Origin: a virus
Reading direction: 5' to 3' (one strand)
Virus record (IMG/VR): IMGVR_UViG_3300037346_000180
Location: 1-34,246 of that record
Length of the DNA: 34,246 nucleotides
A program made the translations under genes and the position numbers. This document shows positions 4,145 through 34,197 of the stretch, piece by piece. Position 1 is the stretch's first letter, and every line of letters begins with the position of its first letter. A model generated the notes under the pieces. It made no database searches. It saw only the letters and a program-made list of their open reading frames with translations, and was not told the origin of the DNA.

Positions 4145-4872
4145 CACAATATGTAAAGAGTACGTCGTTTGCTTCAAAGGATGCGTTGCCCCAAGGCAAT
4201 CCTTTGAAGATTGTTAAGGGCACTGAGATTGATACGGAGTTTAACAACATTGCCATAGCGGTGGAAACTAAGGCTGATCTGCTAAACCCTGTGTTTACAG
4301 GTGTCCCAAAGGCTGCAACAGCGACAGCAGGTACGTCCACCACTCAACTAGCAACTACAGCCTTTGCTGTGTCGGCAGGAACTCCCACTGCATCTCTGCT
4401 TATGTGGCCCACAGCAACGGCCCCCACAGGCTTCTTGCTTTGTAACGGGCAAGCAGTGAGCAGGGCTACATATGCTGCTTTGTTTGCCATTGTCGGTGTG
4501 GTGTTTGGTACTGGGGATGGCTCAACAACTTTCACCCTTCCTAACTACATAGATAGGATGCCTGTTGGAGCTGGTTCACTATATGTTGCTAATAGTCAAG
4601 GAGGCTCTAAAGATGCGGTTCTTGTTAGCCACACGCACACAGCCACGGTTACTGACCCAAGTCACGTTCATGGAAGCGCGACTGGGTCTGGGTTTATTTC
4701 TAACGGGGGAGGTGAGAGTTTGGCGGGTGGGGGTGATCTTCCTTTTGGCCGGCCAATTACTACAGCCACTGCGGTTACAGGCATCACAGTAGCCAACAGC
4801 ACAGAAGGCGTAAGCGGCACAAACGCCAACTTGCCCCCCTACCTGGGCATCTTCTTTATTATTAAAACTTAA
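4141..4872 (+). CDS. Tail fibre protein with collar domain
   Basis: 243 residues. Residues about 45-75 hold a fibre shaft repeat (ADLLNPVFTGVPKAATAT, then QLATTAFA), and residues about 83-142 are a Phage_collar-type domain (LMWPTATAPTGFLLCNGQAV, then FTLPNYIDRMPVGAG). The C-terminus is Gly/Ser/Thr-rich and ends NLPPYLGIFFIIKT, a classic collar-fibre ending. The protein is short, so it is probably a small receptor-binding or decorating fibre, and a larger spike may lie outside the window. It overlaps the hub gene by ATGA and the next gene by TAATG. Confidence 0.8.
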   Translation: MTQYVKSTSFASKDALPQGNPLKIVKGTEIDTEFNNIAIAVETKADLLNPVFTGVPKAATATAGTSTTQLATTAFAVSAGTPTASLLMWPTATAPTGFLLCNGQAVSRATYAALFAIVGVVFGTGDGSTTFTLPNYIDRMPVGAGSLYVANSQGGSKDAVLVSHTHTATVTDPSHVHGSATGSGFISNGGGESLAGGGDLPFGRPITTATAVTGITVANSTEGVSGTNANLPPYLGIFFIIKT

Positions 4873-23988: not shown

Positions 23989-24309
23989 TTAAAATTGTAA
24001 ATAAACAAAGCCGTTAGGTGTTTCGCCGACCAAGATTGTATAATTGTGCAAATACTCCCGCACCGCGTCGACTTCGTCGCATCCTTCGTCAATCTCAATT
24101 GAATAGTAGTCGATGACTTCGGCGGTACTGCTCTCTGAGTAGTCGCAGCAAATAGCAACGACGTCCAGTTCTATCTCTTCGCCGGTGTCTTGCTCGATCT
24201 GCTCAAAGTACTCCAAAAGTAGCCCAAGCGCCATGCGGCTGAATTGACTGGCACGGCCCGCACGGGTGAAGGCGTCAATGAATGATGATTGTGTGAGGGT
24301 GGTTTTCAT
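23989..24309 (-). CDS. Conserved phage early protein of unknown role
   Basis: 106 residues, strongly acidic. The centre LLEYFEQIEQDTGEEIELDV, with AICCDYSE, is a pattern met in many phages and plasmids without known function. The N-terminus (MKTTLTQSSFIDAFTRAGRA) is also typical. It has its own sigma70-type promoter upstream (24337-24364), which suggests very early expression. Confidence 0.75.
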   Translation of the reverse strand: MKTTLTQSSFIDAFTRAGRASQFSRMALGLLLEYFEQIEQDTGEEIELDVVAICCDYSESSTAEVIDYYSIEIDEGCDEVDAVREYLHNYTILVGETPNGFVYLQF

Positions 24310-24336
24310 GGGTTGCTTTCTGTGGTTGATGCGTGT

Positions 24337-24364
24337 AGTTTACAAGGGATGGGAAGGATGTCAA
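24337..24364 (-). promoter_or_regulatory. Leftward sigma70-type promoter for the 23989 gene
   Basis: On the minus strand, TTGACA (24364-24359) is followed by a 16-bp spacer and TAAACT (24342-24337). The -35 box is consensus, the -10 box matches at four positions. A palindrome lies 10 bp upstream of the -35 box, as in the two sister promoters at 24657 and 24948. Confidence 0.75.
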
Positions 24365-24374
24365 TGATTATTTT

Positions 24375-24391
24375 CTAGGGGTTTTCCCTAG
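24375..24391. promoter_or_regulatory. Palindrome upstream of early promoter (candidate operator)
   Basis: CTAGGG (24375-24380) and CCCTAG (24386-24391) form a perfect 6-bp inverted repeat around GTTTT. No T-run follows, so a terminator is unlikely. It sits exactly 10 bp upstream of the -35 box at 24359-24364, the same distance as in the neighbouring copy. Confidence 0.65.
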
Positions 24392-24414
24392 GATTGTGAA
24401 ACTGCTGGCCCCTC

Positions 24415-24627
24415 CTAATTTTGGAACCATTCACGAAGCCAGCCCCGCGCTTGCTGAAGGGATTTCGTGTTAAAGCGTGTCACTTCTTCGCCGTGTTCAT
24501 TTGTTACCCTATAAATCCACTCACTTGTGAACGTCAGCGTGTATACATGGCCGTGCAGCTTCAGCGTGCCATCCTTAGCCTGAGATGCAAGCGCTGCGGA
24601 TTGACGTTCTAGGGTTCCGTAATTCAT
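24415..24627 (-). CDS. Hypothetical very early protein
   Basis: 70 residues. The N-terminal helix (LERQSAALASQAKDGTLK) is followed by a beta region (VYTLTFTSEWIYRVTNEHGE) and a helix with Trp/Arg (QARGWLREWFQN). AGAAGGAC lies before the ATG. It has its own strong promoter, so it is likely among the first proteins made. Function unknown. Confidence 0.65.
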   Translation of the reverse strand: MNYGTLERQSAALASQAKDGTLKLHGHVYTLTFTSEWIYRVTNEHGEEVTRFNTKSLQQARGWLREWFQN

Positions 24628-24656
24628 TCAGTTGTCCTTCTGTTGTTGATGGTTCA

Positions 24657-24684
24657 AGTATAGGGCATTAGCGACGCCCGTCAA
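24657..24684 (-). promoter_or_regulatory. Strong leftward sigma70-type promoter
   Basis: Minus-strand TTGACG (24684-24679), 16-bp spacer and TATACT (24662-24657). Both boxes match 5 of 6 consensus positions. The sequence around the -10 box and the downstream leader (CATCAACAACA) repeats at 24948, showing a duplicated promoter cassette. Confidence 0.85.
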
Positions 24685-24694
24685 GAACTGTTTG

Positions 24695-24713
24695 CTAGGG
24701 GTTTTCCCCCTAG
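24695..24713. promoter_or_regulatory. Palindrome upstream of early promoter (candidate operator)
   Basis: CTAGGGG (24695-24701) and CCCCTAG (24707-24713) form a perfect 7-bp inverted repeat. It lies 10 bp upstream of the -35 box at 24679-24684 and 5 nt past the stop of the preceding gene. With no following U-run in the leftward transcript it looks more like a binding site than a terminator. Confidence 0.7.
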
Positions 24714-24718
24714 TGTGC

Positions 24719-24919
24719 TTAGTAGGTGAACATTCTCAGGGTGCGCAGGGCTTCACCTTTCGTCTCTGCGATCATTCCATTGAACAAAGGGCCATCGCCG
24801 TACACCAGAGACACAGTCCATCCGCCCGGTGCCTGCTTCACCTCATATTGAACTAGTACATGGTCACGTGTGTGGCAAGTGATTGTGTAGTTGCCAGCGC
24901 TTGTGCGTGTTGACTTCAT
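24719..24919 (-). CDS. First leftward early protein
   Basis: 66 residues from the ATG at 24919; a longer frame to 25066 would span the promoter and is rejected. Begins MKSTRTSAGNYTITCHTRDH, beta-rich, with a GGWTVSLVYGDGPLF centre and a helix near the end (TKGEALRTLRMF). Closest gene to the leftward control region, so probably the earliest leftward product. No known family; a host-takeover role is a guess from position. Confidence 0.65.
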   Translation of the reverse strand: MKSTRTSAGNYTITCHTRDHVLVQYEVKQAPGGWTVSLVYGDGPLFNGMIAETKGEALRTLRMFTY

Positions 24920-24947
24920 CGATGATCCCCGTGTTGTTGATGGTTTA

Positions 24948-24975
24948 AGTATAGGGCATTCAAGCCATGCGTCAA
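24948..24975 (-). promoter_or_regulatory. Strong leftward sigma70-type promoter, first of the early set
   Basis: Minus-strand TTGACG (24975-24970), 16-bp spacer and TATACT (24953-24948). Nearly identical to the promoter at 24657, including the ATGCCC just before the -10 box. A weaker AGGG/CCCT inverted repeat (24988-24991 and 24997-25000) lies upstream. Confidence 0.85.
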
Positions 24976-25000
24976 GAACTATTTCATAGGGACAAACCCT

Positions 25001-25645
25001 TGTGTCTTGGAAACAACACGCAGGGCTTGAGAGCCTCTCAATATGCTTCAGAGGGTGCCACGTCACCTCACTTATTGCTCAAAAGCACTAATGACTCGCT
25101 GGTCAGTAACTCACCAGGCTACAAAGCCCCTACTACTTCCATGGTTATTATTACTGGTCAGTCACAATATAGGCACTGAGCCTACGGAGTGACTAGGTAG
25201 TTGCTTATATAAGGGAACGCTTATGTATCATTGTAGTGCATAGACAATCCCTATCGATGTTGGTTGCTCGATAGCTTTAGGCTATGAAGCTCTGGTCTGC
25301 TGCTTCATTGATGGGGGGGGAGGGGGCTGGCTAGTCTGTAAACATTGTAGGAGCCTCTAAAGCTCACAAAAAGGAAATAATGGAAAAAGGGGCTTAGAAG
25401 GAAGGCTTCAAAGCCCTTATAAAGCAATTAAATAGGGACAGATCAAAGCCTCTAAAGCACATGTAAGCTGTTGATATTGTTAAATATAGTAGTAATTAAC
25501 TAACAATAGACATAAAAGCTATAAAGGAATCTGCGCTAACGTAGTTCCCTTTAAAGAACTCCTAAGCAAAGACACCCTATAAAGTGTAAAGAAGTGTAAA
25601 GATTAGGGCTTTATTGATGTTTATTGCTGTTTTAGTAAATAAAGC
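25001..25645. other. Divergent non-coding control region
   Basis: No convincing gene is seen. Visible elements are: the word TGGTCAGT near 25099 and 25156; a hairpin ATAGC-TTTAG-GCTAT (25271-25285); a run of eight G then A then five G (25313-25326); the 11-mer GCCTCTAAAGC at 25353-25363 and 25448-25458; a GGGCTT/AAGCCC inverted pair (25390-25395, 25411-25416); and a tandem 10-mer at 25582-25601. It becomes AT-rich toward the right. Sitting between divergent promoters, it may hold a replication origin or regulatory RNA; neither is shown. Confidence 0.5.
25582..25601 (+). repeat. Perfect tandem 10-bp repeat
   Basis: AAGTGTAAAG occurs twice head-to-tail (25582-25591, 25592-25601) in the AT-rich part of the control region, 45 bp before the first rightward promoter. 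Its period is one DNA turn, as for the repeats at 21521. It could be a protein-binding or origin element. Confidence 0.7.
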
Positions 25646-25674
25646 TTGACATAACAGGATCAATAGTGTAGAAT
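25646..25674 (+). promoter_or_regulatory. Strong rightward sigma70-type promoter
   Basis: TTGACA (25646-25651), a 17-bp spacer and TAGAAT (25669-25674): a perfect -35 and 5 of 6 at -10. It faces the terminase-portal-capsid operon and would start transcripts near 25681. Confidence 0.88.
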
Positions 25675-25741
25675 ATCTCTATAGACATAAAAGTCTATCA
25701 GTAACTCAAATGAACTGTGATGCAGGGCCCATCATAGCAAC

Positions 25742-25770
25742 TTGACAGAATCTGGACATGAGCCTATGAC
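25742..25770 (+). promoter_or_regulatory. Second rightward sigma70-type promoter
   Basis: TTGACA (25742-25747), a 17-bp spacer and TATGAC (25765-25770), with four matches at -10. It lies 96 bp downstream of the first rightward promoter; between them the imperfect palindrome TGATG-CAGGGCC-CATCA could be an operator. The leader that follows to 25880 holds no gene. Confidence 0.65.
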
Positions 25771-25880
25771 ATCTTCTTAGAAGTGTTTAGTTCATTTAGA
25801 TTACTGTCTTAATATGTAATTAATAGGGAAACTTAGAAGACTAAGTTCTCCAGAGTCTTTAAAGCCTTTAAGGGGCTCCT

Positions 25881-26530: not shown

Positions 26531-26574
26531 GACACCGAGTAATCGGCTTTCAGCACGTTGACGGTGCGTGTGTC
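26531..26574 (+). promoter_or_regulatory. Possible three-way RNA structure before HNH/terminase
   Basis: GACA (26531-26534) can pair with TGTC (26571-26574), enclosing hairpins CCGA/TCGG (26535-26538 with 26543-26546) and GCAC/GTGC (26553-26556 with 26564-26567). It lies between the exported protein and the HNH ribosome site. Stems are short and other folds exist (GACG with CGTC further on), so this is only a candidate leader. Confidence 0.35.
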
Positions 26575-26609
26575 TAAACGCCGTCACTCTCTTGAAAGGA
26601 GAATTACAA

Positions 26610-27107
26610 GTGGAAATTAAGAAATGTAATAAGTGCTTAGAAATTAAAAATATTGGTGAATTCCGCATCCATTGCAGCACAAAGGACAAGCTAACAACTT
26701 ATTGTAAAGCGTGCCTCTATGTTCTCACACGAAAATCAGTATTACAGAATAAAGAACAGATAAACAAAAACTCTATTATCTACAGAAAAAAGAATAGAGA
26801 GCAGATTCGATTAAATTCTAAGAGGTGGAGAGAAACTCATAAAGGAAAGAAGAATGCAGACACAGCTAAGCGATATGCGGCTAAGATGCAAAGAATTCCT
26901 AAGTGGTTAACTAAGGATGAAAAAGAACGGATGTCTTGCTATTATCAGTTGGCGTCTATGCGTACACAGGAAAGCGGCAATGCTTGGCATGTTGACCACA
27001 TTGTCCCCATGCGCGGTAAAGATGTAAGTGGACTACATGTCCCTTGGAATTTGAGAGTAATTTCCGCACAAGAAAACATGAACAAGGGAAATAGATATGG
27101 AAATTAG
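26610..27107 (+). CDS. Free-standing HNH endonuclease, GTG start
   Basis: 165 residues. The GTG at 26610 is chosen because AAAGGAGA lies 7 nt upstream; the frame extends further up to 26568. Two CxxC pairs (C6/C9, C32/C35) form a zinc finger, as in the HNH at 525. A long basic helical region follows, then the HNH core: AWHVDHIVPMRG with D129/H130, a PWNLRVIS with N147 and ENMNKGNR at the end. AT-rich compared with the terminase, pointing to transfer. Its 3' end overlaps the large terminase start by 11 nt. Both genes begin with codons for M-E-I, and the 9-mer TGGAAATTA is repeated at both starts. Confidence 0.85.
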   Translation: MEIKKCNKCLEIKNIGEFRIHCSTKDKLTTYCKACLYVLTRKSVLQNKEQINKNSIIYRKKNREQIRLNSKRWRETHKGKKNADTAKRYAAKMQRIPKWLTKDEKERMSCYYQLASMRTQESGNAWHVDHIVPMRGKDVSGLHVPWNLRVISAQENMNKGNRYGN

Positions 27108-30955: not shown

Positions 30956-30984
30956 TTGACAAAACGTTGTAAATATGCTACAAT
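30956..30984 (+). promoter_or_regulatory. Strong internal rightward promoter before scaffold/capsid genes
   Basis: TTGACA (30956-30961) begins right after the portal stop; 17-bp spacer and TACAAT (30979-30984), 11 of 12 consensus matches. A start near 30991 would give extra capsid and scaffold transcript. Confidence 0.85.
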
Positions 30985-32356: not shown

Positions 32357-34197
32357 ATGGCTCTCGGTACTAATCACATCACCACCACTACTGGTGCAAC
32401 GTTTATCCCAGAAATTTGGTTAGCATAAGGCCAAGTAACGATTACTGAATAACGTGGAAGGGCTTGTCCCCAACACGAGAGAAGCGAATGCCCATAAACA
32501 AATGAAGGGTACTAAATGACAGAACACGTAAATGAAACAGAAGTAAAGTATTTGGCAGGTTTGCTAGATGCTGATGGGCACATTGGTTTTGAATATACTA
32601 ATAAAAGAGTTTATTTAACAATCAGCCTTACAGCATCAGATTCCATTGACAGACAAGGCTACGTAGCTTCTCTTCCAATAACTACAGGCATGGGTACAGT
32701 TTGTAGGAAAGAGCAAAGAGGAGATTGGTCTCCCATCTCAGTTTGGAAAATAAGCAAGGCATCTCATCTAGAAATGATCGCCCCCCGTCTTGTAAAGCAC
32801 ATGGTTATCAAAGGAAAGCACCTGCAAAACATGTTTGATATGTGGAAGAAATTCCGCTCTCAAGTGTTAACAGATACAGAAATAGAGCAGTTAAAGGTTT
32901 TTACAAGGGCTTCGCGTGAAGACTCAGGCCCATTGAAAGCTAAGAAGCATCCAACCTGGGCTTGGGTTGCTGGGTATTTAGACGGGGACGGTAGTTACAT
33001 ATTTAAACAACCACCTAGTCAGAACACACCCAGAGCCTTAGTACAGGCAACGGCACACATCAAAGATCGTGTAGCCCTTGATCTGCTCTTCAAAGCCTTC
33101 GGAGGAACCTTAAACAACCGGGGAGCGAGCCATCCACACATCATGGACTGGAAGCACTCTCTTGGAGCCTCTAATGTCTCATTTGCACAACACTTTTTAA
33201 GTAAGGTGTTACGACACAGTAAGCTCAAAAAACACAAAATTGAGCAACTACTAGCGTTCTGTCATACGCACTCGCACAGGCCAAGTGTAATCAACTCTAC
33301 GGAGTAAGCTATGGTCGAAGGTTTTGCAATGTCCCCGCTGATGAAATCATTGCAACTTACAAGAAGAGTCTTGTATTGGCTAATCTAGTTAAGAAGATGA
33401 GCTTCAAGGGCAAGAAAGGTGATTCGCTTCACATTCCTGCTCCTGTTCGCGGCAGTGCTTCGGTTAAAGCGTCTTCCACCCAAGTCACCCTGGTTGCAGG
33501 CACTGCCACTGAAGTTGTTGTCACCATCGACCAGCACTATGAGTATAGCCGCTTGATTGAAGATATTGTTGAAGCACAGGCTTTGGCCTCGCTTCGCAAC
33601 TTCTACACTGAAGATGCTGGCTACGCCCTGGCCCGTCAAGTTGACACTGCCCTTATTGAATTGGGTCGTGGCGTTCAAGGCGGCAGCGGTACGGCTGCAT
33701 ATTCGGGTGCCAAGTCAGGTGCTGACGGTACAACCGCTTATGTTGCTGGTGCAAACGCCGGCATTGGCGCTTTGTCGGACGCCGCTATCCGTCGCTCCAT
33801 TCAGCGTTTGGATGACAACGACGTTCCAATGGACGGCCGCTTCTTGATGGTTCCACCTTCCAGCCGTAACACGCTGATGGGTATTGCCCGCTTTACTGAG
33901 CAAGCCTTTGTGGGTGAAGTTGGTTCGTCCAACACCATCCGTAACGGTGAGATTGGTAATGTTTATGGCATCCCAGTGTTTGTCACCAACAACGCCGATA
34001 CGACCAGTGGTTCTACTGCCACTCGTATTGCACTGATGGGTCATAAAGACTTCGCAGTGTTTGTTGAGCAAATGGGTGTTCGTTCGCAAACTCAGTACAA
34101 ACAGGAATACCTCGGTACCTTGTTCACTGCTGACACTCTGTACGGTGTTAAAGAACTGCGTGACGGCTCTGCTGTTGCTCTGGCAGTTCCAGCCTAA
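32357..34197 (+). CDS. Major capsid protein, split by a group I intron (join 32357-32420, 33338-34197)
   Basis: Exon 1 encodes MALGTNHITTTTGATFIPEI plus W and the first base of the next codon. Exon 2 continues with DEIIATYKKSLVLANLVKKM. Joined, they give one 307-residue frame with Ser22 (T|CT) at the junction. Without splicing the frame stops after 23 codons (TAA 32426-32428). The PEIW-x-DEI N-terminus, VDTALIELGRG and a C-terminal IALMGHKDFAVFVEQ resemble N4-gp56/P22-type coat proteins. It builds the icosahedral shell with the scaffold. AAAGGAAA lies before the ATG; a terminator follows the stop. Codon use in exon 2 is cleaner and richer in GC than in the intron. Confidence 0.92.
32421..33337 (+). 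ncRNA. Group I intron in the major capsid gene
   Basis: 917 nt. P1: exon ATTTGGT (32414-32420) pairs with GCCAAGT (32430-32436), ending in the U-G wobble at the 5' splice site. P10: intron CATAAG (32424-32429) pairs with the start of exon 2 (CTGATG, 33338-33343) at five of six positions. P3: GATTAC (32440-32445) with GTAATC (33287-33292). P7: GGCCA (33279-33283) with TGGTC (33312-33316), where AAGCTATGGTC resembles the S element. P8: ACTC/GAGT (33294-33297, 33302-33305). The intron ends with G33337. GGGC/GCCC (32460-32463, 32490-32493) may be P4/P5. P2 appears absent. P6 presumably hosts the endonuclease gene. Confidence 0.9.
32516..33307 (+). CDS. LAGLIDADG homing endonuclease, two motifs, intron-borne
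   Basis: 263 residues. Motif 1 is LAGLLDADGHIG (13-24) and motif 2 VAGYLDGDGSYIF (151-163); the catalytic-type acids are Asp20 and Asp158. Both motifs in one chain mean a monomeric meganuclease, which would cut an intron-less capsid gene near the intron site so that repair copies the intron. Some such proteins also act as splicing maturases. GAAGGG lies 6 nt before the ATG. Its last codons include the P7/P3/P8 strands of the intron, and the TAA sits at P8. The family is less usual in phages than HNH or GIY-YIG enzymes. Confidence 0.92.
   Translation: MTEHVNETEVKYLAGLLDADGHIGFEYTNKRVYLTISLTASDSIDRQGYVASLPITTGMGTVCRKEQRGDWSPISVWKISKASHLEMIAPRLVKHMVIKGKHLQNMFDMWKKFRSQVLTDTEIEQLKVFTRASREDSGPLKAKKHPTWAWVAGYLDGDGSYIFKQPPSQNTPRALVQATAHIKDRVALDLLFKAFGGTLNNRGASHPHIMDWKHSLGASNVSFAQHFLSKVLRHSKLKKHKIEQLLAFCHTHSHRPSVINSTE

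Follow-up and report, generated by a model that had tools for sequence, protein, structure and literature searches.

Each of the three leftward, sigma-70-type promoters in the viral sequence studied here is preceded by the inverted repeat AGGG-N5-CCCT(A), and in other phages this palindrome stands at three classes of distance from the -35 box, which differ by one helical turn. On the basis of the sequence, we judge this to be a new promoter architecture of the helically phased activator-site type (class I/class II like), in which AGGG-N5-CCCTA is likely to be the site of a symmetric, i.e., dimeric, DNA-binding protein raising sigma-70 promoter activity.

The window, i.e., the whole stretch of DNA that was analysed, is a virus record of 34,246 bases and represents a tailed phage by its gene content, which includes DNA polymerase, primase-helicase, ribonucleotide reductase, thymidylate synthase, terminase, portal and head genes. 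DNA comparison of 22 kb of the window with 50,697 named phage records gave no match, and protein relatives of the phage are present in IMG/VR. Two endonuclease-like genes (endonuclease VII-like, HNH) are inserted in the packaging/head region, at 26568-27107 and 32516-33307. The leftward promoters all have a 16-bp spacer and a small open reading frame (ORF) directly downstream:

23989-24309, minus strand: 106-aa ORF downstream of promoter 1, matching phrog_9974 (unknown function), with relatives in 28 IMG/VR loci
24321-24341: leader word copy at promoter 1, CATCAACCACA
24337-24364, minus strand: promoter 1, TTGACA-16-TAAACT, upstream of the 106-aa ORF
24365-24375, minus strand: A-rich block GAAAATAATCA separating CCCTA from the -35 box of promoter 1
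24375-24391, minus strand: palindrome of promoter 1, CTAGGGGTTTTCCCTAG (minus strand CTAGGGAAAACCCCTAG), kept in the relative L033
24415-24627, minus strand: 70-aa ORF downstream of promoter 2, no significant family match
24641-24661: leader word copy at promoter 2
24657-24684, minus strand: promoter 2, TTGACG-16-TATACT, upstream of the 70-aa ORF
24695-24713, minus strand: palindrome of promoter 2, CTAGGGGTTTTCCCCCTAG (minus strand CTAGGGGGAAAACCCCTAG), one mismatch to AGGGN5CCCT
24719-24919, minus strand: 66-aa ORF downstream of promoter 3, weak match to phrog_8558 (E 0.016)
24932-24952: leader word copy at promoter 3
24948-24975, minus strand: promoter 3, TTGACG-16-TATACT, upstream of the 66-aa ORF
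24976-24986, minus strand: A-rich block TGAAATAGTTC between the palindrome and the -35 box of promoter 3
24987-25000, minus strand: palindrome of promoter 3, in the family-consensus form AGGGTTTGTCCCTA; 24988-25000 reads AGGGTTTGTCCCT on the minus strand

The positions of the promoters, their spacers and the combination of TTGACG/TATACT with the leader word CATCAACAACA at promoters 2 and 3 were found just as the original prediction had described them. It had also placed the palindromes 10 bp from the -35 box, counted from CCCTAG, which is the same as the exact 11 bp that separate CCCTA from TTGAC at all three promoters. The third palindrome, previously regarded as a weaker version, is actually the family consensus AGGGTTTGTCCCTATGAAATAGTTCTTGAC and the commonest form in other phages; the deviant copy in the window is that of promoter 2 (GGGG for AGGG). 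Other phages, e.g., L126, L134, L183 and L234, likewise have the leader word after palindrome-bearing promoters. Judging by their position, the three promoters probably fire early. They are separated from a rightward operon by about 880 bases lacking a convincing gene (25000-25880), and strong rightward promoter-like sites, one within this gap (25646) and one at 30956, are both devoid of the palindrome.

Allowing up to two mismatches, AGGGN5CCCTAN11TTGAC matches three times in the window against 0.18 expected, a count reached by one of 100 shuffles. Over 60 nt, promoters 2 and 3 share 82% identity and are duplicates, so the copies in the window are not independent and selection on the spacing cannot be demonstrated from the window by itself. 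The evidence for the element consequently rests mainly on other phages.

The search for the motif in relatives, proposed along with the original prediction, found the palindrome in L033 (IMGVR_UViG_3300041662_000011), in L034 (IMGVR_UViG_3300035034_000862), which has two of the promoters with the palindrome core at both, and in the more distant primase relatives L037, L038 and L041. Relatives that keep the boxes and lack the palindrome had been named as speaking against the idea; this situation was seen at promoter 2 of L033 only (TTGACGGGCGTCACTAATGCCCTATACT), where the -35 and -10 boxes are kept and the upstream sequence is unrelated, while promoters 1 and 3 of the same relative retain the palindrome. 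At promoter 3, arms and flanks are identical in the window, L034 and L033, but the loop reads TTTGT in the first two and AAAAC in L033. Four of the five loop bases thus differ between 24987-25000 of the window and about 6606-6619 of L033, perhaps through recombination between tandem promoters.

Beyond these relatives, the palindrome plus -35 box (AGGGNNNNNCCCTANNAAATANNNNTNGAC) occurs in at least about 118 IMG/VR contigs, with about one expected by rough estimate, and the element is carried by contigs of 33 to 124 kb. Many of the element-bearing loci belong to one loosely connected phage group. Among 42 loci picked by terminase similarity only and having enough upstream DNA, the core palindrome was present in 11, two of which show the gap-11 arrangement; the element is widespread but not universal. 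In L357, at about 4600-4670 and 1.3 kb upstream of the terminase, the neighbouring palindromes AGGGTATATCCCT and CTAGGGGTTTGATTGCCCCTAG were seen with no clear -35 box at the usual gaps. DSL-LC05 and MW202483, whose terminase is shared with element-bearing contigs, were rejected as carriers as the element is absent. Searches of plasmids and Rfam, and of the literature for the motif words, returned nothing relevant.

The spacing was analysed by a scan in which the distance from CCCTA to TTGAC was left free between 0 and 30 bp and a TTTNT loop was required. It yielded 118 distinct sites, all but three of them at gaps of 0-2, 10-12 or 20-22 bp. Sites were grouped into lineages by similarity of the flanking DNA, counted as lineage-by-gap pairs and compared with an even spread, whereby 37 of 40 pairs were in phase and three out of phase (p about 5e-17). 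Since earlier searches had enriched the 10-12 class, a second count left it out and still gave 18 pairs in phase versus three (p about 6e-10). A second loop class, AAANY, showed nearly the same peaks, with 38 of 46 pairs in phase and eight out (p about 7e-14), or 26 versus eight when the 10-12 class was omitted (p about 1e-11); its far peak is broader and includes a group of six related sites with a 23-bp gap. Both loop classes hence place the palindrome at whole-turn steps from the -35 box. Two lineages hold members of different phase, and contig G377 carries two tandem elements with gaps of 11 and 1. All these searches required TTGAC and would have missed weak -35 boxes.

With a 17-bp spacer, the palindrome centres lie near -44, -54 and -64, and one base nearer with the 16-bp spacer of the window, whose arrangement belongs to the one-turn class (centre about -54). 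Next to the palindrome, the 10-12 and 20-22 classes have the A-tract AAAATA (GAAAATA), although those scans did not require it; the 20-22 class has a second A-rich stretch beside the -35 box, and an A-tract is lacking in the 0-2 class. If sites are spaced by whole turns, they must be presented to polymerase on a single side of the helix, and this one-face placement is our reason for regarding the palindrome as the site of a dimeric, polymerase-contacting protein. The suggestion that a fixed distance argues for such a regulator is thus supported by a scan giving almost exclusively phased gaps, and three phased distances are stronger evidence for polymerase contact than one fixed distance.

In the mechanism we propose, a putative dimer at AGGG-N5-CCCTA would touch RNA polymerase from one helix face. 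Where the site abuts the -35 box (centre about -44), the dimer could contact sigma; one or two turns further upstream (about -54 and -64), it could contact the alpha C-terminal domain positioned on the A-tract. The alpha C-terminal domain would dock between the protein and sigma, with none, one or two dockings in the three classes.

The same phasing could also reflect the direction of a bend, if the palindrome and A-tract acted without any protein, as bent or UP-element-like DNA aiding polymerase. In favour of this, phased bends are able to stimulate promoters, an A-tract borders the palindrome in the two farther classes, and the 20-22 class has its further A-rich stretch by the -35 box. With regard to an UP element, an A/T-rich tract upstream of the -35 box, the AAAATA block is present in two of the three phase classes, but the palindrome arms AGGG/CCCT are G+C-rich. 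These arms are kept while the A/T-rich loop varies, the reverse of what a bend or an UP element would require; together with the 0-2 class, which does without an A-tract, this makes a protein-free explanation unlikely. An operator serving a phage or host repressor that turns the promoters off at a later stage of infection appears very unlikely. Palindromes near promoters are often operators and the 0-2 class abuts the -35 box, but at -54 and -64 the palindrome is clear of the core promoter, and repression by exclusion would not need whole helical turns. We assign next to no probability to the view that the inverted repeats terminate transcription of the upstream genes, or that they are chance repeats which were duplicated together with the promoters: the first two repeats do lie between an ORF end and the next promoter, and promoters 2 and 3 are duplicates, yet no T-run follows the stem on either strand, a terminator scan does not list the repeats, and the phased spacing is seen across dozens of lineages and in both loop classes. 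As a full explanation, a terminator or a single duplicated promoter is ruled out by these spacing data.

Returning to a polymerase-contacting protein, the original prediction had left open whether this would be a phage protein or a host factor used to time early genes. The host alternative fits better, as no shared gene was found, while the early timing continues to depend on position. Comparison of 18 element-bearing genomes (the window, 16 long IMG/VR contigs and the cultured phage Lumi) revealed no protein family in more than ten of them, and none of the families found in at least five includes Lumi; several of the contigs are fragments, and a small, fast-evolving phage protein could be missed in such a comparison. 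As no protein family is common to the element-bearing genomes, and as contigs ranging from 33 to 124 kb bear the element, a host factor is more likely than a phage factor, and on sequence grounds we lean moderately towards a host protein as the binding factor. Unrelated phages, among them probably some that infect Comamonadaceae, would make use of it.

Alternatively, the same activator site could be read in all these phages by a phage-encoded DNA-binding protein that is too diverged or too small to find and is either virion-borne or made first, which we consider rather doubtful. Such a factor would agree with the frequent occurrence of the element in viral contigs and its near-absence from bacterial genomes, with many element-bearing loci lying in one loosely connected group, and with the existence of phage activators acting at about -55, such as P2 Ogr. 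It is at odds with the lack of a protein family common to the element-bearing contigs and Lumi; moreover, those small proteins of the window that were scanned gave no credible match to a DNA-binding family, and a protein made after infection cannot act on the first-used promoters.

The near-absence from bacterial genomes, on the other hand, counts against a host factor. Among 84,980 bacterial and archaeal species genomes, the palindrome-plus--35 pattern has three matches. Two look like chance and were discarded, as was the third (L232), the only promoter-like one, which appears to be mis-assembled phage sequence at a contig end. At positions 1-540 of L232, a phage-like small gene runs into an apparent C-terminal piece of a GAPDH gene, a probable mis-assembly. 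In 369 sampled bacterial genomes, a sample that may lack the right hosts, e.g., Comamonadaceae, the palindrome alone was no commoner than its reversed control. Since a host factor should have sites in its own genome, this is the chief objection to a host regulator with numerous such sites. The extended element was found in none of 368 other host genomes, and a 16S probe for freshwater Comamonadaceae detected none among 114 genomes.

Among cultured phages, the arrangement was detected only in Lumi, a phage from a Finnish lake that was isolated with Xylophilus sp. as its host (PMC9959647). Both of its terminal copies have a gap of 21; the -35 box is TTGACT (480-485) and the -10 box is poor. BLAST of the element against named phages gave mostly chance matches and two leads in Comamonadaceae phages, Lumi and the Limnohabitans phage DC31, the latter not being counted as a carrier because its element is damaged and has no -35 box. 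The element is absent from the cultured Polaromonas phage Tiera. The record of another Limnohabitans phage, DC33 (L477, PQ492659; 39 kb, including a lysin gene and another gene longer than 7.7 kb), has an Inoviridae label that looks wrong.

The window promoters match ten of 12 consensus bases, so that their -35 and -10 boxes are already good and they may not need an activator; a weak -35 box, which is usual but not universal in activator-dependent promoters, is not present there. Promoter 2 of L033 without the palindrome, the two of 42 terminase loci at gap 11, Tiera without the element and the poor -10 box of Lumi count against our reading as well. The full account, in which unrelated phages converged on a near-perfect site of an undescribed host activator that is rare or weaker in host genomes and is helix-phased at three distances, is put forward only tentatively.

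If the proposed activator-site reading is true, a recognisable DNA word would mark the promoters that are probably used first in a large number of uncultured phages. The word would also give a handle on the hosts of these phages, and the regulator could be fished out directly with the sequence. Moreover, natural spacing variation alone would expose a face-of-the-helix contact with polymerase, which is usually shown only by mutagenesis.

Several known systems share features with this arrangement. The rrn P1 promoters combine a strong core, an UP element and helically placed Fis sites, and likewise a strong core, an A-rich block and helically placed upstream sites are found here; in contrast to the degenerate Fis sites, there is one conserved palindrome with G+C-rich arms, and it occurs in phages and not in host promoters. 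P2 Ogr and P4 delta act at a TGT-N12-ACA dyad in late phage promoters lacking a -35 box. The likeness lies in phage promoters with a dyad centred near -55, but the conserved dyad here is AGGG-N5-CCCT, -35 boxes are present and no Ogr-like protein was found.

The recognition consensus of CtrA, TTAA-N7-TTAA, differs from the conserved bases AGGGN5CCCTA. Unrelated phages of Alphaproteobacteria carry strong host CtrA sites in their promoter regions, for which binding was demonstrated (PMC9437464). Similarly, unrelated phages would here independently hold sites for one, in this case putative, host regulator, although motif, host class and fixed spacing differ and our factor is deduced from sequence. 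The class I and class II promoters of Escherichia coli CRP have TGTGAN6TCACA sites centred at -41.5 and -61.5. As in CRP promoters, the palindrome is placed at one-turn steps upstream of a sigma-70 promoter, with an abutting class and upstream classes; unlike there, the site is AGGGN5CCCT, the centres lie near -44, -54 and -64, the -35 boxes are good and the protein is a putative one.
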